Assembly (NCBI GenBank): GCA_949317995.1
Contig: OX439046.1
Coordinates: 35,748,002 to 35,812,001 of the forward strand
Source: Acholoe squamosa
Taxonomy: Eukaryota; Annelida; Polychaeta; Phyllodocida; Polynoidae
Reading direction: 5' to 3'
Length of the DNA: 64,000 bases
Of this stretch, positions 12,844 to 63,145 are shown piece after piece. The position numbers and the translations under genes were made by a program. Positions within the stretch are counted from its first letter, which is position 1, and each line of letters starts with the position of its first letter. The notes below the pieces were generated by a model. That model did not search any database, was not told where the DNA came from, and saw only the letters and a program-made list of their open reading frames with translations.

Positions 12844-12846
<3 letters not shown>

Positions 12847-12904: not shown

Positions 12905-12905
<1 letters not shown>

Positions 12906-13915: not shown

Positions 13916-13936
13916 TGGGGGTATTCCACCGAAACC

Positions 13937-19274: not shown

Positions 19275-19289
19275 ATGGTTGATATTAGG

Positions 19290-19530: not shown

Positions 19531-19551
19531 TTTGGTGGAATACCCCCATTA

Positions 19552-23128: not shown

Positions 23129-23146
23129 CTTTATAATAATAGGTCA

Positions 23147-25840: not shown

Positions 25841-25844
25841 TTAA

Positions 25845-28489: not shown

Positions 28490-28491
28490 CA

Positions 28492-38104: not shown

Positions 38105-38660
38105 GCTTTTCATCTAACAAGGTGAGTGATCACCAGTGTCTCCATCCATGGTGAACCTGCGCTATGACATGGTGCGCAATATATCTAGCGAGGTGAGTGA
38201 TCAACCGCCTTGCCATCCCTGGTGAGTCATCACAATCCTTGCCAACCATGGTGAACGTACGCTATGGCATGGTGTGCATTTCATCTAGCGAGGTGAGTGA
38301 TCACTCGTGTCGCCATCCCTGGTAAGTTTGGGTGATCAAGATCCTCACCATCTGTTGTGAACCTGTGCAATCACGAGGTACGCGTTTCATCTAGCGAGGT
38401 GAGTGATCACCCGAGTGACCATCCCCTGTGAGTGTGAGTGATCACGATCCTTGCCATCCATGGTGAATGTGTGTTATGATGTGGAGTGCGTCTCATCTAG
38501 CGAAGTGAGTGATCACTCATGTCGCCATCCCTGGTGAGGATGAGTGATGAGTGATCACCATCCTCGCCATCTGAGGTGAGGCCATGTGATCACCACCATT
38601 GGTATTCCTGGTGATCTTGTGCTATAGCGACATTGTGTTCCATCTAGAGACATGTGTGAG
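38105..38660 (+). repeat. About 105-bp minisatellite
   Basis: Five to six units with the landmark CATCTAGCGAGGTGAGTGATC at about 38182, 38282, 38390 and 38493, each also holding CGCCATCCCTGGTGAGT and CCATGGTGAACGT. Each unit contains two or more GGTGAGT words that match the consensus 5' splice site. It starts about 370 bp after the 82-bp array and shares the theme TGCCA.CCATGG, so the two may be related. Confidence 0.85.
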
Positions 38661-39480: not shown

Positions 39481-42400
39481 AAGGTTTTGATCATGTGTAT
39501 TTGGCAGTTATTTCAGAGAAATGATTGTCACTACTTGTGTGTTAACCACACAATTCATATTTTCTGGAGTCTGTGCAAAGAGTTGTGGTGAGAAATACTG
39601 TTACATACGACTAAAAGCTGCGGCTGGTGTATAATATGTGCTCATATGCAATAAATTTGGGCTGATAGAAGCTCATGTAAGATAAGAAGTATTCATCATC
39701 AGAGGAACTCTTAATGCATCACAACCATATTCCTTGACAGAGATATTGGATCATATTTGCAATGCAAGATGCAAGAGTCTCTTTAGTTTATATTGAGTGT
39801 GAGGAAAATGATTGCATTTCTATATTTAGTTATTTGGAACTTTCAAGTAGTAATCTTCAGAGGCCATGCCTCAGACAAGAGGCATCTCTACAGAGAATAA
39901 GGGCAAATGGCTGCATTACTTCCACTGGTTGTACAAAGCCTTTGAAAATTGTATGCTCACACTTTAGTGGTGGGTATTCATATCAAGTGATAAATCAGAG
40001 ACTGAACATAGACATGTGCTTTTAGCTGGGGGCTGCCATGATGGAATCCCAGAATGCTCTCTGTTATGTTTATTCAACTGTTCAAAGTCCCTGTAGGTGG
40101 CAGTGCACCAATTTCCCGCCACAGACATTACACACACCATGTGCAGTCTTAATTCACACTTAGCTTTAACTATTCCGATTGATCTAGCTTTGTCCCTCTT
40201 TGTTTTAGCCTTCATGAATAAATGTGGCCAATTAAGCTGAGTGAAATGCTGGTTTAAGCTAAGATTCAGATAGCCTCGACACATTAGGTTTGGAGCAATT
40301 CAGTTGAATCCTGTGAAGAATTTGTCTTTAGTTACAAATCTATAGTAGGGCTCATTCCGAACATGATATGAATTTAAATTGTACACAAGATTATTATGTA
40401 GATTATGTGGACTTCCCTCAAGAGAATTTGATGAAAATGCTGTAAAGGGGACAAAGACAATTGGTATAATAGGGGCCTTTAGGAATTATGTCCACTGATG
40501 TTCTATGAAAGGATGGCGTGGGCTGAGATGGATAACCAATAATATAACATAACATATGGTTGTTTTTATTGATCCCTTTGTAGGCCCGTTATTGCAGTTT
40601 CTACTTGGGTGAAAAGGGAGAGGCACTTGAGTATGATTGCTGCTACTAAACCAACACTTCGGAGTTTATTGTTGCACACATACTGTGGCGGCCCTATCAT
40701 ACTGAGTGCTGTTTCATTGTCCATGACAATTGTCATCGAACTGCCCATCCATAGGGCTCCAAGAAACCACCCTGCTCTTTAGCCCCAAGAGAATAAAATA
40801 ATCATCCATGTATACACAGCACAGAGATTCAGCAGTAACCTTGCATACTTGGAGACCCTTCCGAACACCCGTTGCATCACTTTTCACCTATTTAATATTA
40901 TCATAATAAATATTATTTATCATATAATTTTGCATAATGTCATCATATAACCTTGTGTACTCTTAAATTGAAGGCATCCTAAATGTCATAGCATCAGTCA
41001 TGATTACAAGCCGGATATTGTTTCATCTCCGACATTTGATTTAAAGTTGTATCAGCCAGCCCATCTGACCTTTGCTACCATATCTATCCTAAAGCCACTT
41101 TCCTTTAGGGATAATCATATCGGTGAGGTCTTTATAAAAGCTGCTTGGACCAGATGTAACATATGTGCTGCCCAGACCAATCCCTGCCCTTACTACACCC
41201 TGGGACTATTGCCCCTTAAGCTGCTCAGCGTAAAGCACTAACTACAGGAGCAGCTTTGTGAGCAGCTCTACCAGATATAGACAGCCCGGCAGCCCATGCA
41301 AACACCAGCAGCTCTGGTATGGAAATGTAAGGTTAGATATCAAAGGGCACCATCTTCGGTGGATAAAGCTAAGATACAGATAATCCATCCCAGTACAGGG
41401 ATTCCATACGACCTGACATGTGGGATGGAATCTGTAATCGCACTCCTAAATTCCAATCACTTAGGCATTACATATATATGGCCGTTGCTAGGACCTCTCC
41501 TTAATGCAGAACAGGAGTATAGTCTGTCAAATTACTAGATACTGGTTGAGCAGGTCCATAAGCTGGACTGTTATAGCTCGATGCAGCAAATTGGGCACCT
41601 GAGTGTTTTCCAGTTTTGGAGGCAGCTGTGCACGTAAAATGCCTTCATTCAAGGGAGATTTTTGCATATGCTGCAGAAGACAAGTCTTGTGTATGATTCT
41701 CAAAAATCTCAAAATTCATAACAAAATATGAAAAAAGAATCATTTGCTAGGCATTATTCCCTCATAATACATGTCAAACTAGACAAAATGCCCTCTGTAG
41801 GTCCCATACGGGCTGGAAAAGCACCATGCTAGTAAATGTCTTCATCATTTTCAAGATAAGAATATCTGAAAACCTGAACAATGTGAACAGGTCCATGGTG
41901 CAAAACCCTTTTGTTTCTATTAAATTCCATCATCAATTGTTGTTTTGACCTCATTGAAAAGCATATTGAAATGCTATTCGAGCCCATTATTAGGCATGTG
42001 AGGCCTATTATGATGCACTATTGAGCTATATAGCTGTAAATAGCAACAAACGCGTTGTCGGCACCAAAGACAAGAATCATAAGATGTGCCTAATTCTTCT
42101 CACAATCATTGTATCACTTAGATATTTCACATGCCTTTAAAGATAATCAAGTAGAACATAAAAATTGATAATTCTGGTATCAGTGGGTGATCATGCGTCC
42201 ATATATGATGATCTATGTGGTCCAACATCAAAAACCAAGCAGAAGTTTTGCTGAAAATCACAGTTTTTGCAAACTAACAAAAATCACATGTCTCTCATAG
42301 TGTAATGAGCCACCTTTGAGGTAGGGAAAAAAGCATACTCATTTATAAACTAGATGGGTCAGTATTATGCACTATCTACGAAAAACTGATGATTAGAATA

Positions 42401-42950
42401 TTTTTTCACAAAATATATAGGGCAAAACCTTGATTTTTAAATTTATAATTTGTATTTCAGTGGTAAACTGTGCACTTTATCAATGTAATACCATCTACCC
42501 TGGCCTGAAAGCAATGAGTTTCATCTTTCATTTGCTGCAAAGAGGTTGAGTTCTCTACTTATCACAATACCAGTATGCAAGACAGGAAAACAACATATTG
42601 CTAAAGCCCATCATAAGTAACCCAATTCATGCAGACTACAAAAAATAACAGGTGGTTGTCAATAGAGTAGGGAGACCATTCATTCAATAAATTCAATACA
42701 TGATTAATTTTAAATTCCTAACCTTAGACATTACTTAGCTTTGCAATATAGGGTTATCTATCAGGTGACAGAAATCTATCAGAAATGACTAGCTCTTGCA
42801 TTGGTTACTCTTAGAATCATGGATTTCAAATTGTTTAGGCTATGGTATACTGTTAAATGGTTGTTTGGCACTGATTAACTGCAGATGGGAGAGGGAAGGT
42901 GAGCTTTGGGTTAGGTACAGTATATATATATTCTCGTTACCAAGAGGGTG
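39481..42950. other. Gene-free stretch
   Basis: Several short frames (39762-40025 +, 39964-40284 -, 41296-41538 +) show no domain or splice support. CATTCTGGGATTCCATCATGG on the minus strand near 40040 resembles a recurrent repeat word, but no element ends were found. Confidence 0.4.
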
Positions 42951-43760
42951 CCCATGTAGCAAACCCGCTTAGGGCCAATTCAGTTTTAGCTCAGATAAGC
43001 TGGTTCAAAGCGGGCAGAATACTATTCATGGTTTTAGGTTGGGCAAATGGTGGGTTTCCAGTCAGGGCCACATTGGGTTGCCCTAATAGGGCATACTGAG
43101 CTAAGACTATTGGGCTCCTGACAGTTTTTGTCCTCAGCAAGTTGTGTGGGCCACATAAGGCTAACTGATTTGGGCACAGAGCAGCTTCAAAATGGGCAAA
43201 CACTTTGGGCACAGATTGGTTTCAAGGTGGGCACCCTGAATCAGGCATAGATCAGTTCCAAAGATAATTCCCAAGACAGGGCTGAGGATGGGTTTGCACA
43301 AGGCATACTGAGCTGGGATTTCTGAATTTTGACACTAGATGACCCCACTATGTCTGATGTACAGCTTTCCCCCTTAAGTCAGTATTGATTTTCTTTAGTA
43401 TGATATAACAGAAATATGCTAAGGAATCATATAAATCATAACAGTACACAAATTTTCTCAGAGTGTGGATCTACTGGCAAAATACATTTGAAATGTGCAA
43501 AGTAAGGTGATGTTAGCAGTTTTTAATGTGACTACACCATCCGTGTGATAATCATTTTATATTGAAGTATGCTACCCATTGGGAGGCACTATGAGCTTGA
43601 AGGCTAGTATCATATACCATTTTATTATTCCAATTATTTTAACATATTACTGTATTAATCAAAGAATATATAAGAAATTAATACATTGTACTTCCATGTG
43701 AGCATTCATGCCCCACTGCACACCAGCTAGGGCAAGGATACATAAGTTACATCACCAAAG

Positions 43761-43858
43761 AGACCGACCTCATGGTCCACTGCACAATATAATGATCTAA
43801 TGGTCAAAGCAGACCGACCTCATGGTTCAGTGCACAATATAATAACTTGTAAGTGAAT
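43761..43858 (+). repeat. 50-bp tandem duplication
   Basis: AGACCGACCTCATGGT followed by CAGTGCACAATATAAT occurs at 43761 and 43811 with a few differences. Directly after it, GTCACGGGTGCCTGGGCACC and GTCATGGGTGTCTGAGCACC form another short pair (about 43870-43917). Confidence 0.8.
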
Positions 43859-44675
43859 GCAACCAGCTGTCACGGGTGCCTGGGCACCGCTGACGCCGTC
43901 ATGGGTGTCTGAGCACCCCAACACTGAACAATAGGTTACATAAGTAACAATGCCATAACCTTCCGGTCCCTCTAGTGTCGCATCTGAGCAATCTAGGTCA
44001 AATATGAAAGCATTTATGAAAAGGCCATAATTAGACGGTCAAAATGAGCCCAAGATCAAGGCAAAAATCCCATTATTAAGGAAGTTACGCTACCTAGACT
44101 GTTTCAACCTCTAAATGCGCTACAGACAAACCAGCGCAAGTAACGTGCTTGAAAAGTAGGCGTTGGTAATTTGACATATTCAAGTTCGCGCATGCGCAAA
44201 ATGGAGGCTGTAGCTGCGTAAACGACCGAGATATGAGGGTCTGAACATGCCATACCGACCGAGACAATGGGGGAGATGGCGGCGTCCATAGGGGTCCTTT
44301 GTGCACCCAGTGACACATGAAAGACTCCCCTCAAACAATCACAGAGTTAGGCAGATGCCACTGGCTCCAGTCAGTCTGAAGGGCCAAGCCAGGAAATGGT
44401 ACTTATACCACTGGCTGCTCCCCCTAGAAGGCAGAATCACCAGAACCACCCTTGAGGTAACATCTCCAGTCAACTCTCCTGCTACCTGCTATAGCTCTGC
44501 ACTATGCTGGGTTAGACTATGCCAGACAGGCATAGGACTAGACCACTAGTGGCCAGAGGCTATCTGCTACAAGACACCTACCAGAGGGTAAAGTTACACA
44601 TTTATATTTTATCCCTCTAAGCAGCAGGTCAAGAGCTAGGTGTGGGAACCCACCTAGGACCATACTGGACAGTGT

Positions 44676-44680
44676 ATTAC

Positions 44681-44773
<93 letters not shown>
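44676..44773. repeat. (ATT)n microsatellite
   Basis: About 32 uninterrupted trinucleotide units. The poly-Tyr frame over it is not a gene. Confidence 0.98.
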
Positions 44774-45483
44774 CTCACAGGTGGAGTGGAACAGAACTTT
44801 ATACTTTATAACCAACTGTATAAGTACTGTGTGTGGAAATTACCTGCATATTAACATGTGTATGATTGATATTCTTACATGTCTGCCTAAAGCTGAATAA
44901 ACCAGAGATAACTGAAATAACACTGATAAGAGCTTGATATTCTTACTCACTATATACCACTAGTCATATGATATTTCTCATATGACAACTTGATCATGCA
45001 CAATCACTAGTATGACACTAGCATGTTACTGGACTAGGTCTGGTGGATGTGCCTTGGCCAACTAAGTTTGAATTGATGGCTCTACTGTATTATGATGATG
45101 GGGGGAGTAATACAGTATGTTTAGTCTCCCTCCAACTATGGAGGCCAAGGGGAGGGGCTAGCACCTGGAGGCTAGCAGAGCATTTTCAGGGTTCAAAATT
45201 TTAGAAAATGAGGAAAAAATAGATTTTCTATAATATCTATCCCAGATGGCACCATGTGATCAAAGTGGGCAGCCACTTTCAGCCACACCAAAAATCCATG
45301 TTGAACCCAAACCCACTCTGAGACAGATCTGTGTCCATATTGGTTTGCCCAGTGTGGCCCACGCACCCCACTGAGGACAGAAACTGTCAGCAGCCCATCA
45401 GTTAGCCCATTGTGGCCCACATCAGAAGCCACACCAAATAAAGTGTGGGCCACAGTAGGGCCACACCACCTATGCTACCTGGG

Positions 45484-46033
45484 TGGTGATGATGCCGCAG
45501 TCTCAACTCTGATATCAACTAACATGTTCCGAGAATAACCAATCGTTGCCTACTAGACTCGCCATAGTGGAGAGAGCGTCAAAACCTTTGAGAGCTGCTC
45601 AGATTACTGTGAGCAGCTCGGCTTACCTACATCCCCTGTATGTGACACCTACACAGTGGTGTCAAACCTTATCACCTAGTGCTCAGCCTGAGCCCCATGT
45701 GGCGTTGTCACCTGGTAGTGCCACTATGAGATGGTATTAGCACCTGTCAGCAGAAGCTGTAAGCAGCACAACAATATCACAGTAACAGCTAGTGGGAGCA
45801 ATGTTTTCTTTTTTTTACTGGAATCACAGGAGAAGAATAAGGGAATTTTCAGGCAGAAGGAAAACGCTTCGTAAGTGCTTTCTACAAGTGTGAATTCATA
45901 ATTGAGGGTTTATGTGTATCAAAGGAGGGGGATTAAGGTACTTGTTTGGCATTCGCCTTCATCAAATTGCATGTGCCTAATGATAATGTTCCCCGTACTG
46001 TCCAGTTCTCTATCATCAAAGCCATCTATGAAA

Positions 46034-46098
<65 letters not shown>

Positions 46099-48200
46099 AT
46101 TTCCACAGATATGCTATATCAATGAGGCAGATCGTAGGATGCCACGTAACAGACTTATACTTAGACAATGCAAAATGATGCGTAAACTACAATAACTTCC
46201 CTGATATGTTTCATGAAGATAGACCGCCGGAGCTTGTGTTTAAGGCTATATAGTGACAGTCTTGTGATCATGACATAACTCTGTACTAGCCACATCTGAG
46301 GAAAAAAAACTCTGCTGATAGTATATGTTGATAACGTAGATCAAAGAGCAATGTTCATGACTGGGGAACATGCGCCATGCCCACCCTCCTGTTCTTTCAA
46401 AGCTGTATGGGCAAAAACACCTTACAGATTCACTTTATCCACTCGATATTGATAAAAAAACAACTTCCTGTCCGGAATGTCAAGCTATAGACGATATGAT
46501 TATCTGAACGTTAGAATGATACAATCCCTCTCAGTGAACAGGTAGAAACAATTTCATCTTAGTCAATGTGATTATTAGTCCAGACGGCTAGTTCAATATG
46601 GTGCAGTTGGTGCTACATTCACGTCACCTGATCTTGCAAGATGAGGGGCGCCCCGTCCTCTCATGTTGGTTTTACCTGAACACCCATCATCTTCAATGCA
46701 AAGGGTTTATTTACCCTGAAAGCTACAGTGCGTTGGCAGCTTCTGGTTTCTTTAAAGGGTATATCCTTTTGATGTTGCCGAAACAGATGTTGTATGTATT
46801 CTTTTCTAAATCAAAGTCCACCTTTAACATCATTTCACGCTTTTATAAACCTCTCTTGGCAGTAGAGGAGGAAATATCAATACGAAAAGAATGCACATGG
46901 AAGAGATAAAGCTATGTTTTGCCCTCTTCATGTCATTAATGTTTTGTTTCAAAATGGTAAAACACTTGAAAAAATGTAAGCCATCAGAGTGATTTACTCA
47001 ACAAGCTAAGAGGATTTCTTTTTTTATATACATAATATTATAGACCCTCCCCATATATAAAACCTAAAATTGTGTTTAATGGGATATAAGAGTGCCGTCT
47101 AGCGTTAAACAGTATTCACCATGAACAGGAGCCGCCGGATAATTGGGTAAGGAAACGCCTTTTGTATTTGTGACAGGATCTGCGATAAGGGCCCTTAGTG
47201 CAGGGTACATTAAGGTCCCTATTCCCAGTACACGTCACATTTAATCAGTGTAATAGAACCTAAATTTAATGCCGAGATCGAAACCACGCGCACTCCCTCC
47301 ACTTTCTTTTCACTAAACAAAGATTAACTGCATGCCAATAAATGTACGGCACACTACGGCAGTTAGGATTCCTTTTAAGACATGGGGGTAATGAACAACA
47401 TCGACAAACATTACGATAACAAACCCAACTTAGCCTATTTGAAATCGGATCATTGAAATACATGTTTCTTTCCTCTCTACACAATAATCAAAAGAATCAT
47501 GCACAGCCCTGTAGAAATCTCATACACATGTACAGGCTTCCCATTATCATAGTACACAGAGGTGCCTATTTCTCATACGAATCTCTCGCAAGTACTGCAG
47601 GGGGCCTGTCTTTATCATCAACTCACATACACGTACTCTCTCTGATAGGCTACTCCTTAATTGGTGGGGATCCAGCTGGCCAATCAGCTGCCAGGTTCTA
47701 TTTGTGCCCCAGTGTGGGTTGGTGTGTCCCCTGGCCGTCTACTGGGTGCTGAGTGTCGGGTGCCGAGATGAGAGTAGATGTGCTCAGAGCAATGCAGGAG
47801 CAATGCAATGAATGGGAGCATAGACCAGTATAGATTCACTACATGTTGATTCACGATTTGCTCACCAGGTGGCCCCACAGTGCGGCTTTATTCACTGCTG
47901 CAAGTGTTCCTCCAGAAGGAGTGAATGACGACCGGCTGGGAGGTACACAGAGGGAGGAGCAGTGGATCCTGCACCCCCCTCTCCCACATCACCACCACCT
48001 ACTCACCCTCCTCCCCATCCCCCCTGTCTCCTTATTGCTCACGTCCCGCCGACGCTGCTGCCTGCACGGGGAGCCGTACTTCCGGTGTTGGAGGGCGGGA
48101 GCTGCTGGAGCCCCAACCCTACACCCCCAATACTTAAGCACCACGTGGAGCAATCGGCCTAGGAGTCGTGGCCACGTCGTCACCGTGGCCAGTCAGGGGA
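45484..48200. other. Gene-free stretch leading to a GC-richer region
   Basis: No supported gene. The sequence becomes GC-rich and CpG-containing at about 47,840-48,200. CCAATCAGCTG (CCAAT box plus E-box) lies at about 47,680. This interval may be the upstream region of the promoter at 48202. Confidence 0.4.
46033..46095. repeat. (AT)n microsatellite
   Basis: AT dinucleotide run with one phase break at the start. Confidence 0.97.
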
Positions 48201-48201
48201 G

Positions 48202-48209
48202 TATATAAG
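48202..48209 (+). promoter_or_regulatory. TATA box of a putative promoter
   Basis: TATATAAG in a GC-rich setting (GGGGAG upstream, CCTGGAG downstream). An initiator-like CCAAACC lies at 48224-48230 and TCATTAT at about 48240. A 5' non-coding exon could run from here to a GCG|GTATGT donor at 48340, joining the signal-peptide exon at 49722. This linkage is inferred from order and orientation only. Confidence 0.42.
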
Positions 48210-48878
48210 ACCTGGAGTTGGCTCCAAACCATCTCCTAGTCATTATCCTCTTCAATATCACCAGTTCAATTTCAAGCAGGAGAGCTGTCGGGCAATAGCA
48301 ATACACAACTGCATACAGTAGTCAAAGATTGCATTTGCGGTATGTGCATTTCTCCTAAAGTTGAGGCCTCAGTGTTGTGCTTGTTTTGATTGGAAACTTA
48401 TACAACTGGTATGAATTCTCATATTTCCCTTAGCGGTATAATCACATTGCCTCCAATTGCTAAATAACACTGAATTAGATAGACCTAACCACAGCTGGAC
48501 TTGTTTTATGGACTGAGCTCCAATACTGTGACACCGACTGGGACCAGAGCGACTCCATACCAATTCAGCTATGTACTCCCTGTCATCACACCTCTATAGC
48601 CTGTAAAATCTATCATCACAAGGAGATAAGGACATGTCACGCACAGACGCCACTGGAGGAGAAAAGATTGGAACACAAAGGAACCATTGGACCTTACAAG
48701 ATTATCCACTCCTGTCCTACTATCCATGGTCAGAGGCTCATATGCATTATGAAAGAAGTATGAAAAGTTAACCCATAGACCTTCTTGCTGCTCTCTCACC
48801 AGAGACAGTTTTGGCACCAGCAGACGTTGGTCCTGGGATGGAAGGCTTCTTTACTGGCCTTGGAGGCAGTGGTTACGT

Positions 48879-48886
48879 TCTCTCTC

Positions 48887-48960
<74 letters not shown>
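48879..48960. repeat. (CT)n microsatellite
   Basis: CT dinucleotide run with one CC interruption near the start. The Ser-Leu and Arg-Glu frames across it are artefacts. It lies inside the putative first intron of the 49722 gene. Confidence 0.98.
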
Positions 48961-48963
<3 letters not shown>

Positions 48964-49721
48964 CTACCAGAGCTAGTACATGTGTATTGACAGCAGAGGA
49001 CATCATGAAATTCATATAAAACCTAAATCTGAATATCTCCTCCTTATCCTCAGTAGCCGCTTTACGTATGGTAAATATCCCCAACACCAGCCCATTGGTG
49101 ACATTCGATAGAGTTAAATCTAGAATTTCGTGTCTAAGTTTGGGCCGTTCGTGTCCTCTGGTTGGGACTTGTTTGGGTGACTCTATGATTGAGCCGTTGC
49201 ACTTAGCGTATGGCCCTACAAGACCAGCTCTTGATAATGATTGTATTGGCAGTTGGGAAACTACCGATAAATAATATTAGGTCCAAATTATTATAGCTGC
49301 ATCCTAATTGCGGTGCCAGGAACTGTTTCTCTCGTCTTTTGATGGAGTACTACATTCTCCCGATGGACCATTCATAGCGCAGAATACAATTTCGAAAATA
49401 AATTAAAGGGATAATCATCCTAGAGAAAGGTTATATCCAAAATAACAGAATGACTTTAGAAGCAGGAACGTGTACTCTCTGCTTACACTGTACTCTCTGC
49501 TCTAGAGGTTCCCAGTCTGAAAAAGTAGGGGCATTGCTTTGAAGAAGTGGCACATGTGAATTACTTCACATACATAGATTTTACATTTTAAAACGCCATG
49601 TCCCTGCCAGATGGCAAACAATCTCAAACTGACAACCCCTATTATGCATTAGGCCTAGAGAGAATTGTACTATAGCTTTCCCCATGATTGAACACACACT
49701 ATGAGCAGTTCACTCATAAAG

Positions 49722-49830
49722 ATGTCTCGGACCCTGCTTACCCCTACTCGGACGAGAAGCTGTCACCCTGGGCTCCTGCTCCTGTTGTGTTTGTTTGCTG
49801 TGAACCATTCCTCTGGACAGGATGACATAG
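49722..49830 (+). CDS. First coding exon with signal peptide, secreted or membrane protein
   Basis: ATG in good context (AAAGATGTC) starts a 36-residue peptide. An n-region with five basic residues (MSRTLLTPTRTR) is followed by HPGLLLLLCLFAV, a strong hydrophobic core, and then a polar NHSSGQDDI. A cleavage site after SSG or SGQ is likely. The exon ends at ATAG|GTGAGT, a strong donor leaving phase 1, which is usual for signal-peptide exons of extracellular proteins. The protein would enter the secretory pathway. Its mature domain is not in this exon, and no phase-compatible next exon was recognised before 64000, so the gene probably continues beyond the window or through short exons I could not identify. 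Family unknown. Confidence 0.55.
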
Positions 49831-52800
49831 GTGAGTAACAACTAAAATCAGCTGTATTGATGACCTTCTCAAAAAACTACAGTGTGCGGGTATCAAAGCC
49901 ATGGTTGTAGATATGCCTATTCAATTGACCAGCTGATGGCAAATTGGTTATATTTATATAGCAGGGCTTATTTTTCTATAGATGTGAAGATGCTATACTT
50001 TAAAAATAGGTGTTCACTTCGATACTTAATTAGTATAGATAAATATAGAGACATCTCCATGGTAACATTCAACATTGGTCCTATACTGTTTTCATTTAAC
50101 CTCCCCAGTGTCTAGGGTGGTCTGGGGACCTACATTATCTACATTCCTCTGCCACCAACACTGGATCTGCAGCATTTGACTAGAACCATGACTGTTTACC
50201 ATAGGTCAGGGAGTAGTTCGGTCGCTGCCACCACGTACAGCTTGCAGTACGAGCGGCTCTGGGAGGAGCTCTTAGTAGTGTCTAGCGTAGGTGTGAAGTG
50301 AGTTCCACACGTCTCTGATTAGATTTAGGGACCTCCACATAACCTGCTATTAAATGTGCTAGCTGTTACTGGTGCGGCATCGGTAGACAGGGTGACTCAG
50401 TGACTTCTGGGATACGCAATATGCTAGGATGGAAACCCAGCCTCAGCAGTAGACATCACTGTATAGGCCAGCCTTCTACCCACCCATACCTCATACCATT
50501 TCAAGTTTTTCGTTTGATGAAACCTATCTGAATAATCATCACTACTAGCCCAATAGCCTATATCAATTGTCCCTGCTTACACAGAATACGCCCATGCAGA
50601 CATTAATGAAGGTTTCTATAATGGGCCTCCATCCTCCCTCTGAGCTTACCATCATTTATATAGAAAAGTGCTATGTATCTAATATAATTTCTGTCCTCAA
50701 GATCTGTTTGTGCTTTGCCATACATGAAGAGCATCCTTGTGTTACTCTGCAGCTGCCTGTGACTGGGGTGGTGTTTCCTTCAGATCGTGCCTTACACATG
50801 TTTAGTCTAGTAGATGGATATACTTTATAGTATAATCCCCCATCTCTAGGATAAAAGCCATCTTATATGTACATTGGAAGGCCTGTCTAAAATAGAACTA
50901 CCCCATACAAAATGTAGAGACATTGAAAGGGGGTGACCCTCAGGGAGATCATAGATGTAGTGGTGTTTCTAAAAAAGCTGTCCAGCCGTACTTAAATTGC
51001 TTTTGAATATTACATTAGGGTATATGTCATAGGAGCCACTGTGGGTACTTGGAACTCAAGCCAGGCTATACATTTTAGACAGAATAGACAGTAGAATTCA
51101 GTTTCTATTGGGACTTTACTTCTTGCCAGCACAACGTCATGCTAGAGACAAATTATTTGATTTGATTCAAGGCATTGAGGCATTTTGTGGTATCTCTCAT
51201 TGCCGATTGCACGTCGAACTCAATGAATAATGCAGCACCCGGAGGTTCTCCTCTCCTAAGACATCAATCATTTAGGCTGAACTGTTACACAAAGCTGAGG
51301 GGTGGCTCCACTAGGGAGGAATATTGTCTCCTTTGTTGTAGTTTTATGCATTATTGAAGGCATCACTATTTCCTAAAAACTCATGACGTGCCGCTGATGA
51401 AACACTATAACTGGGCTAATTGCAGAATGCTTTTAGTTCATCTGGCAGAGGTCGTAACTTCCTCCCCATATATCTGGGGGATATGGGGAGCGAATTACAC
51501 TGAGGTCGATATTCCAAGCTGTTACCCATGCACGCTCATTCTTATTTGAATGTGCCAACATTGCCAGGCTCACATTCCTATGCATTGGCTGGGATCCATT
51601 GACTGATATCTCCCCTTCCCATTAAACATCTCTCTGCATTTCGACCTGCCTCAACCCCTTCCCATTTATAACCACAGCTAGTTCAATAAACACAATACTA
51701 TTATTTGTGCCAGCCAAGCGTTATCGCCAGCTCTCCCACGGTGTGTTTGCATAACCATGGGTCAAGAGGCTTAAAGTGAGAGGACTTGAAGTGCACTTGA
51801 ATAGAGCTGCTGTTTGATAACAGACACTCTATCCTATATATTATTGGGAACCACTCCAGAATAGGCACAGTGCAAATCAAGTAGAGTATAGCCTTCATTC
51901 ATAGACATTTACGAACAATGCACTACTCAGCAGACATGGTTCACAGACTATAACATCATTGTATAATTCTGCCTTGTATTTTGATGGACGTAGACTGCAT
52001 GCATATTCTACTCTCCTCTGCCACATTTCCTTTTTGTTATCGCCATCTCAAGCTCTGTGAGAGCGACAAAGGCCCCACTAGGCATCCTTTATCAATATAC
52101 AGGTACATCCATTTGCCCTGGGGCTTATTGTGGCTTCTATTAATTATGTCATCACCGAATTTGGGCCTACTTCACCTTTAATGGTGTGAGGCATGGGCCG
52201 ATATAATATTGACCCAGTGCCCCCTCCCGTTACCGCCTAAGTACACAGCGTGTGTCTATATGTATAATTCATACAAGACATCACCATCCAGGCCATAAGG
52301 TAGGTTAGAGGGGAGGGTGGTGGTGAGAGATGTTTTTGTCTACACTGCGTGGTGATAATTAGTCGTCAGGCTATGGAATAGCTCTCTAATGACTACGTGA
52401 GCTGCTCGGGCAATTAGCCAAAGGATGGAATCCCTCATGGAGACTAATTGTGCTGATTGAACGGTTCTCAAACCCCTAGTACTATAGAGGGAGGGGGAGA
52501 TGCCCGGGCAGTTACGCCCTATGCAGTGCAAAAACTGCTGAGTAGGGGAGATAATATTATGATGGAATTGAGAAGTCGACAGTTGCAGCTACTGAGATAT
52601 GGGTTGGTGAGATGATTGTAGGAGACGAAACTGATTGAGGTGGCAAAAAGTTATTTAAGGGCGGTATCAGGTATAAAAAAAAGAGTGAGATATTTATGAA
52701 ATGATATAAAGTCGTTTCCAAGTCTTGCAGCTGAAACATGCAAAGATTTTGACCTATTCTGAAATTTTTGGTGCAGGAGGGTGAGAAATCGCATTTTAAG

Positions 52801-54459
52801 TGTCCTTGTTCTGTGAGAAATGACCACGTCTAAAGTGAGGTTTTGGACAACTAGGCTGAATTTGACTGATTTTGCACAGGATGTAGAATTTCCAATCGGG
52901 TCAATTCGCTCTCTGTGGATTTCAGGCAAAAGTCTCTATGATTACCCTAGTTAGCTCCCTTCCTCTAGTCCCTTCTTGCATTCATGCCTAGAATTTCTTT
53001 TCTTACTTAACATCTCTTTCATCTTCCTTCTCAAGATATCTTCTGTCACCTGGGAAGTCCTTGTTCCCCGCTTCCATCCCATAGCTAATTCCATACATGT
53101 GTTCCACCTACTCCTGATGGGCGTAATATTTTAGTGAAGTCTTTAGTCTGAACTGTTTTACTACCGCCATTGGGCAAATAACTGTTTCAGAGGCACAAGT
53201 ACTATACAAACCTAGTCCAGAGGTGCACATATATACTGCGTAAATACTAGACCTATTTAAAGAGAGATATGCCAAGATTGAGAGAAGCCACTTGGTGGCA
53301 AAAAGCAAAACTCATTGAGGACACTATCTTAATGGTGTTTATTCGCAGTCTGAATGGACCATTTTACCTGTATACATCTTTTCAGCTCGTTTCCGATCAC
53401 CGTTGCTGCATTAAAGACATTTATAAGCTGTTTGAATGTCCATAGGATACTATAGTTTTAACTTTTCATTTCAATGGTGACCCCCTCTTTTTCTTTTATC
53501 AAAATGATTATATAGATGTCCTCTTTCTATCCAGAGAGTCCTAAAGAAAAATCAGTAGAGGGGCATTTACCTTATGTCAGTGCAGCATACTGACATTTGT
53601 CCTTCATGCGATGTTATACTCATTTTGCTTATGTGTTTAAGGTCGAATCAAACATTTCGTCCTAGGCCTCGAAACTCACCTACATGTATATCTGCTATCT
53701 GCGTGTTGGTCTGTTAGTGCTAGGTACGTACACGTGTGTTATAACTCTGCTAAATATAGGGCTAGTATGCAGTAAGCCTTGTATCTTATGATCCCAACAG
53801 GATCATAGAATGTAGCAGAACTGAGACACAAAGGATTCCACCTTTAGAAATTTAGAAATGTCTTTGAAATCACCCTTTTTTAAGTTATTTTGCCCCTATG
53901 TTCCCCGGGTCTGTTCCTGACAGGTGACAATACTGAATGGTGTATCGACACTAGAGATAAATGGGTAGGAGTATGAAATAATTGTATTGGCCTTAGAAAA
54001 TCAGAAAATGGGCCGGTTTTCATCAATAAGCCAGAATGATAAGCACGCAACCACCATCCCAGAGAGCAGAGCAGTAGATCAAAACCTACGATGCGATATA
54101 CAACTCAAAGTCCTTTGCTATTCAATCCTTTGGGATAAGGTTTACTCAAGTATGGGCAAAAACCACAACAGTCCAAAAAACCGTCACATGAAAAAGCTTT
54201 TCTTTTTCCTAAAAAGAAGGGGAAAATGCTCACACTCTAGCCTTTGGTCCACCTAACTACTACACTTCAGCTATGTCCACTTACTCTACTTACTTCTGTC
54301 TATTTACAATGCCCATGTAGCATGCGTGTAACACATAGCTGTCACCTTCTGATCGTGAAGAGAAGGTCTATATGGCCTTCAGCACAGACTCTTTGCATGA
54401 TATTAAATTCATTTCACACGGTCCACTGCGCCTTGCCGACATTAGGGTATAATCTTTCT
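49831..54459. other. Putative intron or intergenic, no recognised exon
   Basis: One open segment at about 50205-50301 lies between a CCATAG acceptor and a GAA|GTGAGT donor, but it is in the wrong phase to follow the 49722 exon and has no known domain. The minus frame at 52651-52929 (92 codons) also lacks similarity. No TIR element was recognised. Confidence 0.35.
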
Positions 54460-57430
54460 ATATATTCTGATGTTTGAGCACTCTATACTTAATCCTAATA
54501 AGACAGGTAGTACCTCAATTAAACTAGGAAATAATACTAATGGTCTGAGTGTTCCGTCAAATGAGTGTGCTGAATATATAATCAGCTTTTTCACCTCTAT
54601 TGGTAAAAGGCTTGCTGAAGCTCTACTGCCTCCTGCACGAGACATTAGGGAAGAAGCTCCTTTTGGTATACCGTTACAAGATACAGACCTCCTGTACAAC
54701 ATTTCATGTATTGACCTGATAAAATTAATCAAGAGTATTATTTTAGAAAGCCATCAGCTATAAAGCATTGTACATATTTTGTTATTAAGGATGCATTTAT
54801 GTCAATCCCTGATGTTATATTGGTTTTATATAACAAGTGTATACGTGTTTGTAGTTTTCCTGATGTTTGGAAGGCTGGTACAGTAGTCCCCGTCCATAAA
54901 AAGACAAACTCCTTGTATTTTAACGACTTTAGGCCTATTAATCATTTACAGATACCTGGTAAAATATTGGGGAAATTGTGCAAGATTACAGTTGTATATG
55001 GAAAATAATGGTTTACTCTGTCCAGTGAAGCATGGCTACAGGAAGGGACACTCTACCCAGAGCGCAGTCACTCAGCACCTTATATATCATAAACAATGAG
55101 CCAACGTATATTCCGAGTTAGCAGGTTGTCCCATGGGCGCTGCCATTACTGAAGCTTGTTATCAGCGAGTTCTACTGATAACACCTATCAGATGGGTACC
55201 AGTTGGTCCCCGAGAGGACCGCAGTAAATAGTTGGTGTCATTTCATTGGCTGATAATCAAACCAGCTACGACCGTATAGCTTATAGGGTAGAGGCACCCA
55301 TTTCGGACGCTCCTGGCCATTCAAAAGGTGACCATATGTAATCCTACAACCTTGTACCTTTTAACTTTGTGTATTCCACTTTCTATTGCACTAATGGAAA
55401 CATGGTATCTTACCACTTGTATTCATGAACAAGTGTTGACAAACCTTTCCTTTACATGTGAATAAATGAACTGTACATATTGTGTCCTCAAATCATCAAA
55501 TTGCACCTAGAGACAGACAGCTCACAGTAGGTATGACCTTACAGTCGGACACTATGTTATCTAATAGATATAAACACATTGGCTGACTGTGTGTGAAATA
55601 TACTATGAAGGAATGCATTATAGCACTAGGGAAAACAAGCTAATACAATACCCCTCTCCAGAATACTCTCAGATGTTTAATTTTACATACATGTAACAGG
55701 TCCATATGCAGGCTCAAATGAACATGACCTCCGTGAGGCAGATGAGGGTTTGATTAAATATAGGTGTTAGGTACTGAGTAAACCAAACACACAGATCTAT
55801 AATCCATGATTGGTAGTTAGGATATAGTAAAAGGTTTCTCTTTTTGACAAAATTACCATTATATATTTATAATAACTATGATATAACTGTGTCCCAGACA
55901 GGGTGCAATTGGTGTCCGACTTTAGGTACACTTTAAAGGTCATATAAAAATAACTACCATAATGCAATGTTATTGGTGTATCCAGGTTGGGCAAGTAAAT
56001 TCAGTAGCAAAAATGTATATATTCCCATTGCCATGTAAAGAGGTTCTATAAGCATGGTGGTTAGGACACAACTGATTGTCCAATTAAACCAGTTCTCTCA
56101 TTCAGTCAGAATCTTTGATTACCAGAATAAAGCAAAAACACCCTATGTTAGTATACTTGTAAAATGCCTTTTAAAGGACCTCATATCTTTTTATGTGCCA
56201 TTTGCTAGAGACAATAGTATTTCAGTTTTCATATCTAGTTCATATGATACCTGAAATTATCATATTGATTATGTAATTCAATCCAAAAGGTGTCCGACTT
56301 TGGGTGTCTGTCCGACTCAGGGTGCCTTTACCCTATATCGTCTATAAAAAAGCATTTGATACAGTTTCACATTCCAAATTATTTGACAAATAAGCAACTT
56401 GAGGTCTTAACATACCGACCTGTTCCAAAACTATCAACAGAACAAGGTTCACCTTATGTCGATGTCCATACATTTGCTATATAGATTTCTGCGACAGAGG
56501 CTATGGATGTTAGCTAATGATAAGTATGCAGATGCAACACCTATTACGCATGGTGTGCCTGAGGGCTCTGTTCTGGGTCCTGTACTTTTCCTTTATGTAT
56601 AACTTCACTGCCAAGAGTTGAGATAATTTTGACATAACTTTATCAGTGTTTATCTGTTTATGCTGATGATGCTGAAATATATGTAACCACTCCTCAGTTA
56701 TGGGAAATGCCTTGGACAAAATTGGAAAATCTGATGTACTGATAACAGCTTCACCATCAACAAAAAGAAAAGAAAATCGATGGTGTATAATGATGTCCAC
56801 CATGACGACAGTGACTTCTTTTCGAATAATGCCAATTACGATGAGTGTATATAGTTTCCCCTACCTTGGTATTACTTTAGATCCGGAGTTTAATTTTTTT
56901 GAACATAGCGCTTTGGTTAATAAATTAGAAACATGAGACATAGATATACCAACTTGCCAGAATTAGAAATTCAGAAATAATAACACATCTGTTGATATCT
57001 GTTGAAAGCTATAATCCTACCTTGTTTTAATCATGGTGACTTCATTTGGGATCATAGGGATCATAAGCGTGAGAGCAAGGAGCTGCAGCTGTTAGAGAAC
57101 TGGACACTCCCTATTGCCTTTATGGTTAAGTTAGAGGAACATCCCACCATGACCACACTGCAGATAAGGGATGCAAGAAAATGTACTGAATTGGCCACAA
57201 GAAGAGATTGTCATCTACCGTTTTATGCCTTTTATCTAGCCCAATGTGATGATTTTGTTGACAATAGACGTCTACCAACAAAATTACATTTAGGGAAAAG
57301 GTGAATTTACCACATTGTATAAAACCTATTGTTATCAAGTGTGCTTGCTATAGAGCTAGAGTACGCTGGAACCTGCTAAAAGTAAGATACACACTCATAA
57401 AGGAGCAGTTTGAAAGTGAAATTATATAAT
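54460..57430 (+). pseudogene. Decayed LINE (CR1/Jockey-like) with most of an RT domain
   Basis: Pieces in RT order on +: a linker with FFTSIGKRLAEALLP (about 54590), SFPDVWKAGTVVPVHKK and FRPINHL (54850-54960), GYRKGHSTQSAVTQHL (about 55030), then after an interruption VYKKAFDTVSHSKL (56340), HGVPEGSVLGPVLFL (about 56550), YADDAEIYV (56660), FPYLGITLDPEFNF (56850) and ILPCFNHGDFIW (57010). This is the palm and thumb of a non-LTR reverse transcriptase. The YADD catalytic box is intact. The frame shifts repeatedly, stops occur, and the endonuclease domain was not found. A TIR element sits between the fingers and the palm. Inactive. Confidence 0.85.
55286..56333. mobile_element. TIR element nested in the LINE relic
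   Basis: The left end GGGTAGAGGCACCC..TCGGAC and right end (reversed) GGGTAAAGGCACCC..TCGGAC are flanked by TATA on both sides (55282-55285, 56334-56337), a TA or TATA duplication. The LINE RT resumes directly after the right end with VYKKAFDTV, which confirms that boundary. GTGTCCGACTTTGGGTG words recur internally (about 55910, 56290). Non-coding. The 195 bp before its left end (55090-55285) is not recognisable as RT and may be a further small insertion. Confidence 0.75.
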
Positions 57431-57529
57431 TGCCAAATCTATAAGTGCCATCAGTTGAGGACCACGCCACAGCCCAACGGCCTGTACTAAGTCTTGCAGG
57501 TTTGTTGGTAAGTCAAAATGGGATGCAAT

Positions 57530-58356
57530 TCTAGCAATGATTGTACAGTATAGGATAGGTCAGTCCATACAGTCCTATAGTGAAGGCCAACCCCCCTCTA
57601 CCCCCCCCATAAAACTAGGTGACCTTGTGTGTTCAGTAATGGGCCCTATATAGGATAAGGGGGTTTATGGAGCTATCATGTATCTTCCTGAAAGGGATAC
57701 CAAATGAAATGAAGAGACTTATCTAAGCCAAAAAATCCTGCTGAATCCAAAAATGTTGGTCTTTCTTATCAAAATTTGACCAAAAGTACCCGAAAATGAT
57801 GTTTGATGAGGGAAATACTTTTAAAAATGTACAAAAATGATATTGAAAATGATTGCAAATCTTTAAATATAGAACACATAAATCAGAGTTAATACCTCAA
57901 TCCTCATACCCAAATGTCTGCCTATCTCTCAGTCAGGCAAGTTCTGGGCTTGTACATTATTCTGCCTATCCCACATACAGCATATCAATTGTGTACCTAT
58001 CACTCATCCTGCCTATCTCTTCAATCTAAAACATTGACAGTTCAATCTGGTTATCTCTTAAAAGGCCTAACTTATAATGCTTACCCCTCACCTTATCTTA
58101 TCTCATTTGTTTCTTCTTTCCTTTAGTTTTCCTATCCTCAATCTGCCTATCATTCATTATACCTATCCCTCATGGTGACTATCCCTCAGACCATCATGTT
58201 TAATCTGCGCTGTTTGTCTGCTATATAAGCCTTTATTGTTTAACGGTACATTCCTTACCATGTCTACTATTTCAATTTTACCTATCCCTGATAATGCCTA
58301 TCATGTAGCCTACCTATCCCTCATTGTGCCTATCCCCCAACTCTGCACATCCCTCA
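57530..58356 (+). repeat. Left arm of foldback element (outer part)
   Basis: Pairs with 62311-63145. The final shared words are CCTATCCCCCAACTCTGC and ATCCCTCAT, after which the arm is cut by the satellite insertion and resumes at 61676. Confidence 0.85.
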
Positions 58357-58358
58357 TT

Positions 58359-58387
58359 ATTCTATGGTCTTAGACAGACCATAGAAT
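58359..58387. repeat. Perfect hairpin at the edge of the insertion
   Basis: 12-bp arms ATTCTATGGTCT and AGACCATAGAAT around a TAGAC loop, overlapping the left TTATT. Confidence 0.9.
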
Positions 58388-58589
58388 AGTTACAAGAACC
58401 ATGTTCACCGATGTTGAATCGCCCTTCTAGTGTAGACTTGCTAAGTCAAATCTATAGCCTAGCCACATATTGCCCTTTTTTTACTCATAGGATTACACAT
58501 AGGGTTGCACAGGGACCAACCTATCCTTTTAATATTGGCTGTTAGTGCTTGGACAAAGAAAGTCTACTCACCCTGGATATAGCTGTGAA

Positions 58590-59710
58590 AACCCATTTTA
58601 ACCCTTTAATGCACTGGTGTCTGTTTCTATAGGGGTATACATAGGGTTTATGATGCATTGATTCACACTGTGATCCTTACAGGATTAGCAGGCTGTCCAG
58701 GGGCTGCACATACTTCCCTATGATGCATTGATGCAATTTAACCCTTTATGGATGGCATAATGCATTGATACACAGTCAACCCTTTATGAATGGCATGATG
58801 CATTGATTCACTTTAAGCCTTTATAGATAGCATGATGCAGTGATGCACTTTTACCCTTTATTGGTGGCATGATGGATTGATGCAAAGTTAACCCTTTATG
58901 AATGGCACGATGCATTGATGCACATTTAACCCTTTATGAATAGCATGATGCATTGATGCACATTTAACTCTTTATGAATGGCATGATGCATTGATACACA
59001 GTTAACCCTTTATGAATGGCATGATGCATTGATGCACATTTAACCCTTTATGAATGGCATGATACATTGATTCACTTTAAGCCTTTATGAATGGCATGTA
59101 GCATTGATGCACAGTTAACCCTTTATGGATAGCATGATGCATTGATGCACAGTTAACCCTTTAAGGATAGCATGATGCATTGATGCAGTTAACCCTTTAT
59201 GGATAGCATGATGCATTGATGCACAGTTAACCCTTTATGAATGGCATGATGCATTGATGTACATTTAACCCTTTATGAATGGCATGATGCATTTATTCAC
59301 TTTAACCCTTTATGAATGGCATGTAGGATTGATGCACAGTTAACCCTTTATGGATAGCATGATGCATTGATGCACAGTTAACCCTTTATGGATGTTACAA
59401 AGCATTGATGCACATTTAACTCTTCATGGATAACATGATGCATCGATGCACTTTAACCCTTTATGAATGGCATGATGCATTGATGCACTTTAACCCTTTA
59501 TGGGTGGCATGATGCATTGATACACAGTTAACCCTTCATGGATAACCTGATGCATTGATGCACTTAACCCTTTATGGATGGCATGATGCATTGATACACA
59601 GTTAACCCCTTAGGGATAGCATGATGCATTGATGCACAGTCAACCCTTTATTGATAGACAAGGCATTGATGTGCAGTTAACCCTTTTATGGATGGCATGA
59701 TGCAATGTCA
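58590..59710 (+). repeat. 38-bp satellite array
   Basis: About 25-28 units of GTTAACCCTTTATGGATAG followed by CATGATGCATTGATGCACA, with variants (GAATGG for GGATAG). Regular from about 58735. The first units after 58590 are diverged. Units are AT-rich and hold overlapping ATGCAT and TGATGCA self-complementary words. Confidence 0.95.
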
Positions 59711-59714
59711 GCAA

Positions 59715-61600
59715 ATATGTAATAATGCACTATTTGTCAGCAATTAGTCAATTCATGTTAGTAATTACTCACTTTTTGTCAGCAATTAGTCAATTCATGT
59801 TAGTAATTACTCCCTTTTTGTCAGTAATTAGTCCAAATATGTCAGTAATAATGCACTATTTGTCAGCAATGAGTCAATTTATGTTAGTAATTACTCACTT
59901 TTTGTCAGTAATTACTCACTTTTTGTCAGTAATTAGTCCAAATATGTCAGTAATAATGGACTATTTGTCAGCAATTAGTCAATATATGTTAGTTATTACT
60001 CACTATTTGTCAGTAGTTGTAAAAATATATCAGAAATAATGCACTATTTGTCAGCAATTAGTCAATACATGTTAGTAATTGCTCATTATTGGTCAGCAGT
60101 TCATCAACATGTCAGTAATCACTCACTATTTGTCAATATTGAAAATTGAATTGAAAATAGCATTGAAAATTACATTAAAAACTCGGGTCTTTTAGGTCTT
60201 AGACCTAACCTGCTTCATCTTATAACAACACTTAGTCTACATATGTCAGTAATTACAATTTATCAGATATTAGTCAATATATGTCAGTAATTACTCGCCA
60301 TTTATCAGCAATTAGTCAATATATGTTAGTAATTACTCACCATTTGTTAGCAATTAGTCGAAATATGTCAGTATTTACTCACAATTTCTCAGCAATTAGT
60401 CAATATACGTCAGTACTTAGTCATTCTATATCAGCAATTATCAATACATGTCAGTATTTACTCACAATCTGTCAGCAATTAGTGAATATATAACCAAGGA
60501 ATAGCCCATTGATTCAATTGTGCATCCCCCCTTTCTCACAATTTGTCAGATATTAGTCAAAATATGTCAGTATCTATGGACTATTTGTCAGCAATTAGTT
60601 AATATATGTTAGTAATTGTTCACTATTTGTCAGCAATTTGTCAATATATGTCAGTAATTACTCACTATTTGTCAGCAATTTATCAATATATGTCAGTATT
60701 TACTCACTATTTGTCAGCACTAGTAATTGTTTACTATTTGTCAGCAATTCGTCAATATATATCAGTATAATATTACTCACAATTTGTCAGCAATTAATCA
60801 ATATATGTCAGTACTAAGTCACTCTATATCAGCAATTGTCAATACATGTCAGTATTTACTCACAATCTGTCAGCATTTAGTCAATATATAACAGAGAAAT
60901 AGCCATTGATTCAATTGTGCATCCTGCCTTGACTTGTATGTGTCAAAATATGTCAGTATATATGGACTATTTGTCAGCAATTAGTTAGTATAATTATGTT
61001 AGTAATTATTCACTATTTGTCAGCAATTAGTCAATACATGGTAGTAGTTACTTCCATTTTATCAGCATTTAGTCAATATATGTTAGTAACTGCTCACTAT
61101 TTGTCAGCAATTAGTCTATATGTCAGTAATTGCTCACTATTTGTCAGCAATCATTCAATATATATTAGTAATTACTCACTTTTTGTCAGCAATTAGTCGA
61201 TATATGTCAGTAATTGCTCATAACTTATCAGAAATTAGTCAATATATGTCAGTAATTACTCACTCTTTTTCAGCAATTAGTCAATATATGTCAGTAATTA
61301 GTCACTATTTATCAGAAATAGTCAATATATGTCAGTAATTACTCACTCTTTGTCAGCAATTATTCAGGATATGTCAGTACTTAGTCACTAGATATCTGAA
61401 ATTAGTCAACACATGTCAGTATTTACATATAATTTGTCAGCAATTAGTCAATAAATGTCAGTATTTTACTCACTTTTGTCAGCATTCAGTCAATATATGC
61501 CAGTACCTCCTCCTATGTCGGTAATAATGCAGTATTTGTGAGCAACTATTCAATAAATGTCAGTAATTACTCATTATTTGTCAGCAATTAGTTAAAGCAT
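59715..61600 (+). repeat. 21/42-bp satellite array
   Basis: A 21-bp monomer, TCAGYAATTASTCA plus a 7-bp TATATTG-like tail, alternates as a 42-bp dimer (GCAATTAGTCAATATATG, then GTAATTACTCACTATTTG). Because 21 is divisible by 3, long stop-free frames result (for example 59725-60039, 60996-61196). They are not genes. The array is broken by unrelated sequence at about 60130-60240. A segment at 60389-60535 is repeated at 60788-60934, an offset of 399 bp (19 monomers), including a shared non-satellite insert (ATTGATTCAATTGTGCATCC). Confidence 0.95.
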
Positions 61601-61675
61601 AGTTTAGCATAGCACATAGAACACAGTTGCCCATAGATCATTTTAGGGCAATGCCCTATCCTTAGACATTTTATT

Positions 61676-62310
61676 TGACTTGCATATCTGTCCCTAGGAT
61701 GCATGTTTTTTTTTGTTTTTTTTTACGTTTGCTCATCTTACAAGGTACTCTGTGCCTATTCCTTAAATTGCTAATTGCTCATACTGCCTATCCCTCTTGC
61801 TACCCATCCTTACCTATCCCCCATACACTCTATACAGCTCTCTTACCCATCTCACCTCTCTTACCTACCTATGTCACAACCAACCTTCATTATGATGACC
61901 ATTTCTTAGTCACCCTATCACCTAATATACTGGTTACAGTCCACCTTATTCATACATCTACCTATCATTCATGCTGCATATCTTTCAGTTTACCTATATA
62001 ATGATATGAATGGAGGATAGGCATAATAGAGGATAGGTATATTTTACAAGGCATAGACCTGGGGACAGGTGGAAGAAATTGAACACAAGCTGAGATATGT
62101 ATAGAGAGAGCGAGTTAGATTGACTGAGCTGACATGGTAAGAAAACCATATGGAGAGCATGAGGGATAGGTATTCAAATGGATTGGTAGCAAGGGGGATA
62201 GGTAGCATGTGCAATATCTAGTTTGAGGGATAGGCACAGAGAGTACCTTGTAAGATGAGCAAATGTAAAACAAGAAAACATGGGTGGTAGCGACAGATGG
62301 GCAAGTCAAA
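61676..62310. repeat. Inner inverted repeat of the foldback element
   Basis: 61676-61825 (TGACTTGCATATCTGTC, then GCTCATCTTACAAGGTACTC) pairs with the reverse complement of about 62165-62310. It is the inner continuation of the two arms. The axis lies near 62000. The inner 150-180 bp on each side is more diverged but keeps CCTATCC motifs. Confidence 0.8.
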
Positions 62311-63145
62311 TATGAGGGATATGCAGAGTTGGGGGATAGGTATAATGAAGGATAGGTAGGCTTTATGATAGGCATTGTTAAGGATAGGTAGGATCAAAAT
62401 GATAGACATGATAAGCAATGTAACTGTTAACCATTAGGGCCTAAATAAACAGATGAACAATACAGTTTAAACATGGTGGTCTTAGGGATAGTCACATGAG
62501 GGATAGGTAAAATGAATGATAGGAAGACTGAGGATAGGTATACTATGGGAAACTTGGACCAGAGAAGATTAGCTAAAGTAAGGAGTAAGCTTTAGTATCT
62601 AGGTCTTTTGGGAGATAGCCTTACTTCAAGATGCTTTAGATTTAAGAGATAGGCAGTATGAGTGGTAGGTAGACTAAGGGATAGGCAGTATGTGAGATAG
62701 GCAGAGTAATGCACAGTTAGAATACTTGTCAAGTTGGGAGGTAGGCAGACATTTGGAAATGTGCATTGAGGTACTAACTCTGGTTTACGTGTGTCTATAA
62801 AGACTTCTCATTATTTTGAATATTATTTTTGTACACCTTTAAAATATTTTCTTCATCAAACCTCATTTTCGGGTACTTTTAGTCAATTTCTGAGAATCAT
62901 GATGAAAAATTTGGATTCATCAGGATTTTCTGGTCCAGGTGGTTTCTTCTTCCCCTTTAGTATCACCCTGATAAAGGAATACCACAGCTCCATAAACCAC
63001 CTAATCCTCTACAGAAATCAACAATGAAGACACAGGGGCACCTAGTTTCATGGGCGGGGGTAGAGGGGGGTGGCCTGTCACACTCTACCTATAGACTATG
63101 CTCTCAGTGACCTCTCCTATAGTATAAGCTTCTTGATTCTAGCAT
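62311..63145 (-). repeat. Right arm of foldback element (uninterrupted)
   Basis: Reverse complement of 57530-58356. It joins the inner arm without a break at 62310, giving the empty site for the left-arm insertion. Its outer edge lies about 30 bp from the donor of the candidate exon at 63174. Confidence 0.85.

Follow-up and report, generated by a model that had tools for sequence, protein, structure and literature searches.

The 64,000-nucleotide stretch of the Acholoe squamosa genome analyzed here (contig OX439046.1 of assembly GCA_949317995.1, positions 35,748,002 to 35,812,001 of the forward strand; hereafter the window) contains, at its positions 57528 to 63144, a long palindromic structure that is best explained, with a probability of roughly 0.7, by two superposed events: the insertion of a transposon of the Mutator/Foldback type, and the later insertion of a second element, resembling a HINE (non-autonomous Helentron), into the left arm of the first. 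Alignment of the sequence with itself establishes a single pair of arms of about 1.1 kb, the interruption of the left one by a 3.3-kb insert, and hence the order of the events, the insert being younger than the foldback because it interrupts the foldback arm. Judged from these alignments, the original element measured 2,285 bp, nearly all of it stem around a 23-base loop, before 3,314 bp entered its left arm.

A single pair of inverted arms, the left one interrupted

The foldback and its flanking repeat comprise the following parts.

57528..57536, + strand: left copy of ATTCTAGCA, presumed 9-bp target site duplication
57537..58357, + strand: left arm, first (outer) part, with directed CCTATCCCTCAT-type words (inverted-repeat alignment and motif counts)
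58358..61671, + strand: 3,314-bp insert that splits the left arm and is HINE-like in part of its structure (its joined flanks align with the right arm)
61672..61987, + strand: left arm, second (inner) part, which resumes from 58357 past the insert (alignment with 62011-62312)
61988..62010, no strand: inter-arm loop, 23 bases (alignment limits; fold of 61672-62312)
62011..63135, - strand: right arm, uninterrupted, 1,125 bp (alignments)
63136..63144, + strand: right copy of ATTCTAGCA, presumed 9-bp target site duplication, flush outside the right arm

The outer arms (57537-58361 and 62309-63135) are about 79% identical. Local alignment of 57528-58361 with 62309-63145 found 644 of 815 aligned positions identical, and the same comparison restricted to the element proper gave 634/799 identical positions and a score of 820; dinucleotide shuffling of one arm (200 rounds) reached at most 74, and 283 pairs drawn at random from the window at most 108. 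The inner pair (61672-61987 and 62011-62312) aligned with 219 of 287 positions identical and a score of 206 (maximum in 200 shuffles, 66), and the single-stranded sequence from 61672 to 62312 is predicted to form a long hairpin that branches at its centre (z, -13.8; 20 shuffles). The diverged inverted arms that an earlier reading of this DNA, made from the letters alone (the sequence-only reading), had placed near these coordinates were thus recovered with scores far above those of shuffled sequence. The same reading had treated the outer and inner arms as two nested domains and the space between the outer arms as the enclosed middle of the element, and neither proposal survived the alignments. 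The right arm (62011-63135) is unbroken, and its left partner consists of 57537-58357 followed directly by 61672-61987, so that removal of 58358-61671 makes the inner left arm a direct extension of the outer one. With the flanks of the insert joined, the alignment with the right arm continues across the joint, where a single additional T is found, and the usual arm-to-arm differences occur on either side of it; as a single alignment, the unsplit arms spanned 1,164 columns with 849 of 1,082 positions identical. Alternative insert borders at 58362-61675 fit equally well, both choices scoring 144, because TATT flanks both sides (58358-58361 and 61672-61675). What stands of the foldback-type reading is that a mobile foldback best fits the long repetitive arms, the lack of an evident gene and the flush 9-bp repeat; the 3.3 kb is not its middle domain.

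A single 5.6-kb foldback, with the tandem arrays of the 3.3-kb segment as a true middle domain and with composite outer and inner arm domains, would have a precedent in foldback elements such as Tetris, in which the arms are divided into outer and inner domains and the middle domain varies (PMC4079207). Such an element, however, should carry its middle domain at the centre of symmetry, which is 61988-62010, whereas the inner left arm (61672-61987) directly precedes the right arm and, with one extra base at the joint, continues the outer arm; we regard this explanation as very improbable. For the two-event reading, the intact inverted arm acts as a built-in empty site that both delimits and orders the nested insertion, and the structure illustrates that nesting can mimic a complex foldback with a middle domain.

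A nine-base repeat flush with both ends

On the + strand of the window, ATTCTAGCA occurs only twice, both times flush against the outer end of an arm, and it is presumed to be a 9-bp target site duplication; the sequence-only reading had made no mention of it. A 9-mer was shared between random 25-base stretches in 6 of 4000 draws, and within 3 bases of two random points in 46 of 200,000 draws; in both controls, draws less than 200 bases apart were skipped and counted as misses. These frequencies bear on a different origin of the palindrome, namely a local inverted duplication, in which a degenerate 16-bp-repeat stretch would have been copied inversely beside itself (e.g., by template switching) and the 9-bp repeat would be coincidental. 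The single known copy would suit such an origin, as would arms that abut across a 23-base loop in the manner of a head-to-head duplication. Inverted duplication alone, however, predicts no 9-bp direct repeat, and the one present here combines flush placement at both outer ends and absence from the rest of the + strand with the low chance frequencies given above, which leaves local inverted duplication quite improbable.

In terms of the transposon reading, the 9-bp direct repeat, known from a single copy, falls within the 8-10-bp target site duplications of the Mutator superfamily, and the arms, at about 1.1 kb, exceed the 100 bp above which the terminal inverted repeats (TIRs) of that superfamily are placed. 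Arm-to-arm Kimura two-parameter divergence is 0.24 for the outer and 0.29 for the inner pair. This copy of the foldback is most likely old and dead, as suggested by the 21-24% divergence of its arms and the lack of a gene; arm divergence is a rough sign of age only, as it depends on how similar the arms of this family are when a copy is born.

Directed words and coding content of the arms

The sequence-only reading had also held that the arms are rich in spaced variants of one 12-bp word and that they enclose no gene, and both statements agree with the counts. The word CCTATCCCTCAT, allowing up to 2 mismatches, had 32 matches in the window, where 6.4 were expected. Of these, 25 lie within the arms, the left arm holding 13 on its + strand and the right arm 12 on its - strand (one of these 12 starting at the last loop base), and all 25 are oriented toward the element centre. 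The exact CCTATC sequence is present 15 times forward and once in reverse in the left arm, and 15 times forward and never in reverse in the right arm, with an expectation, taken from the rest of the window, of 0.16 per arm. When shifts of 5 to 59 were compared, 16 gave the strongest autocorrelation in both arms. With up to 3 mismatches allowed, 13 of the 16 left-arm words lay opposite a right-arm word in the arm alignment, and the word array therefore predates the divergence of the arms. By analogy with Galileo, the CCTATC words are candidate transposase binding sites.

Inter-arm identity was 198/226 in motif-word columns compared with 651/856 in other columns; motif conservation was nonetheless discounted as a sign of function, as words picked by their consensus lower the divergence on one arm by themselves. 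A higher-order repeat of ~150 bp, suspected from the positions of the words, was also rejected, 150 lying outside the six top autocorrelation shifts in either arm.

Two open frames of at least 110 amino acids (stop to stop) were listed inside 57.5-63.1 kb, one in the 42-bp array of the insert and one in the inner left arm; no gene is evident, the element not having been put through a family search. The long inverted arms with internal short repeats correspond to the foldback structural class, in which many members lack genes and no coding content is needed between the arms; here, only the 23-base loop separates them.

Structure of the 3.3-kb insert

Within the insert, the following features were distinguished.

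58358..58388, + strand: perfect 13-bp stem with a 5-base loop, candidate palindromic 5' subterminal inverted repeat (subTIR) (stem scan; fold z, -7.9)
58720..59704, + strand: 38-bp tandem array, 26 copies (Tandem Repeats Finder)
59731..61592, + strand: 42-bp tandem array, ~44 degenerate copies, also with a period of 21 (Tandem Repeats Finder)
61611..61621, + strand: AGCACATAGAA, candidate 3' subTIR, ending 50 bp before the 3' terminus of the insert (9/11 match to the inverted 5' repeat)
61645..61657, + strand: AGGGCAATGCCCT (AGGGC-AAT-GCCCT), weak candidate for a 3' palindrome, ending 14 bp before the 3' terminus of the insert

The hairpin TATTCTATGGTCT-TAGAC-AGACCATAGAATA places a perfect 13-bp stem at the very start of the insert; in a HINE, a 5' subTIR that is palindromic or has an inverted repeat beside it lies close to the 5' end. 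Comparable 13-bp stems (loops of 3-7 bases, (AT)n runs excluded) were found at one other place in the window, 14148-14179, where a perfect CCGATTTTTTCTG/CAGAAAAAATCGG stem lies within the Harbinger-type element described below. A 79-base tail after the 42-bp array closes the insert. The insertion site fits CAT|TATT with a 1-base difference, and a TATT duplication fits also. Overall, the 5' end and the arrays of the insert agree well with a HINE and the 3' end only weakly, and its structure makes a HINE somewhat the better bet.

Evidence weighing against the two-event reading

Several observations weigh against the two-event reading. At the ends of the foldback, the 9-mer controls were devised only after the repeat had been noticed, and the outermost 7 and 9 arm bases were excluded from the best local alignment, pairing in part when alignment was forced; a single target site duplication from a single copy can also be due to chance. 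No transposase was evident in the element on inspection of its open frames, with no family search on the element itself. No MULE domain was found in six-frame readings of 1-13502, 19721-34722, and 42001-57002 (13.5-19.7, 34.7-42, and 57-64 kb lying outside the scan), and blastn (E, 1e-3) returned no second copy in the rest of the 64-kb window. In the insert, the 9/11 match of AGCACATAGAA was equalled by 2.7% of 3000 random 79-base stretches, and the tail folded no better than its shuffles (z, -0.8) into a predicted structure without the AGGGCAATGCCCT stem. The best inverted match between the 80-base ends of the insert was 7 bases, with 188 of 500 random stretches as good, and the TATT on both sides is also compatible with a 4-bp duplication. 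All structural inferences rest on one copy. Exact patterns gave 0 matches in viral and prokaryotic contig collections, a result that says little on a eukaryotic host.

An alternative is that the foldback is real and the 3.3 kb is another non-autonomous element, not a HINE, that produced a 4-bp TATT duplication. Copies of TATT at 58358-58361 and 61672-61675, which make both borders equally good, and the weak 3' HINE features are in line with such an element. However, the left TATT lies within the 13-bp hairpin, suggesting that this TATT belongs to the insert, and the 7-base match leaves no TIRs beyond chance between the insert ends. We hold this alternative to be possible, at odds clearly short of even, and the HINE assignment is retained below.

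Other elements in the window

A Harbinger-type transposon occupies 13916-19548, with a DDE_Tnp_4 protein at 17336-18226 on the minus strand and an open frame at 14300-15415 whose MADF/Myb-like match fell just under the cut-off. Its inverted tips are TGGGGGTATTCCACC, with TTA at both sides, and it sits within an 84-bp tandem repeat, copies of which are found at 13751-13915 and 19549-19721. Among Pfam searches of ten open frames and of six-frame readings of the three intervals scanned above, only the Harbinger-type transposase frame exceeded the curated cut-off; the other matches (MADF, HrpB2, cloacin immunity, Atrophin-1) were weak and under it.

An element of ~1.8 kb at 24051-25840 has inverted ends that start with AGGGGGGCTAGCACGG (155-bp match including TTAA, 96% identical), and it is bordered by TTAA at 24047-24050 and 25841-25844, as in Kolobok or piggyBac types. 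A short inverted pair of 74 bp with 93% identity at 9197-9550 resembles a miniature inverted-repeat transposable element, with no target duplication evident by eye. Adjacent minisatellites are located at 36560-37693 and 38142-38590, with units of 83 bp and ~100 bp, respectively. The GC skew at 36-38 kb is -0.19.

Proposed sequence of events and relation to known systems

From the structures described above, we infer mobility, superfamily, the function of the words and the HINE assignment as follows. A non-autonomous Mutator/Foldback transposon of ~2.3 kb, gene-less and composed of two 1.1-kb arms and a 23-base loop, would have inserted first, duplicating 9 bp of its target (ATTCTAGCA) and being mobilised in trans by a transposase produced elsewhere. 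The 15 directed CCTATC words per arm, partly on a 16-bp step, may have served as transposase binding sites giving end specificity, as argued by analogy with Galileo. At a later time, the left arm would have been entered by the 3.3-kb element, which carries two minisatellite arrays behind its terminal hairpin and is most likely a HINE that spread through rolling-circle replication.

The older element is probably a non-autonomous foldback element of Mutator type, a likeness that is drawn because of its foldback form, its 9-bp repeat, and its 12-bp word on a 16-bp step. The comparison made in the sequence-only reading was with the TU elements of sea urchin, which have similarly long, repetitive outer arms of ~0.8 kb built from a short unit; they differ in their 15-bp unit and 8-bp target site duplication. 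A foldback from a different superfamily in which similar duplications occur (P/Galileo type, Merlin, or hAT) is unlikely, in part because P and hAT elements usually duplicate 8 bp of their target. The foldback form does arise in several superfamilies, and Galileo, in which transposase binding sites lie within the repeats of long TIRs, belongs to the P superfamily (PMC3688188), but a 9-bp duplication together with a 12-bp word of 16-bp periodicity is reminiscent of Mutator-type relatives (PMC5225508).

Tetris of Drosophila virilis, as described, is likewise a non-autonomous foldback with tandem repeats within its arms and target site duplications of 8-10 bp, but its repeats are ~220 bp long and a middle domain is present (PMC4079207). 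Tm1 of Meloidogyne, a Mutator/Foldback element, shares with our element its foldback arms in the form of composite repetitive TIRs, target site duplications of mostly 9 bp, short tips that are unlike at the two ends, and gene-less members, and nested insertions are mentioned in a table legend of that paper, as found here; it differs in a repeat unit of 13-15 bp of other sequence and in having some members that encode a Phantom-like transposase (PMC3169594).

The insert is likened to HINE/DINE-1 elements by its palindromic 5' repeat, the candidate inverted copy 50 bp from its 3' end, the arrays between them, and a possible T|T target (PMC4067079, PMC7492417), whereas its 3' features are weak and no autonomous partner was seen. 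In mite HINEs, the distance to the 3' end is 38-60 bp for the inverted subTIRs and 8-35 bp for the palindromes, tandem repeats are present in some copies, and the T-rich target is entered without target modification (PMC4067079); their stems begin 2-4 bases in, while that of the insert starts at the terminus itself. In oyster HINEs, tandem arrays lead into a right module of ~60 bp, in a study that covered units of 100-500 bp only (PMC7492417), compared with units of 38 and 42 bp in the insert.

Among the entries listed by a literature search on structural terms, which did not include the word itself, we recognised no foldback with a CCTATC-type word, and we do not claim that such an element is unpublished. 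The locus might represent, at a little less than even odds, an undescribed Mutator/Foldback family of near-pure palindromes with ~15 directed CCTATC-core words per arm, in which transposase binding sites would fill much of the element, and which also became the landing site of a HINE that carries satellites in two arrays, each built from unit sequences of the HINE itself. The nearest description that we found is that of Muta1 from Aedes aegypti, a Mutator-like element classed as type 2 Foldback, in whose TIRs a 12-bp repeat is present 9 times, separated by spacers of 3-4 bp, and whose target site duplications are 8 or 9 bp (PMC5225508). Common to both in layout are the many 12-bp words in inverted ends and a duplication of 8-9 bp, here 9 bp, with a step that is here partly 16 bp. 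Muta1 differs in its TIRs of 145 bp and in encoding a transposase (PMC5225508), whereas the foldback described here has arms of 1.1 kb, words that are degenerate and in part widely spaced, and no gene. Should there be further copies, a word so similar in length (12 bp) and step (16 bp) to that of the active Muta1 would help to test whether such words in foldback arms are transposase binding sites.

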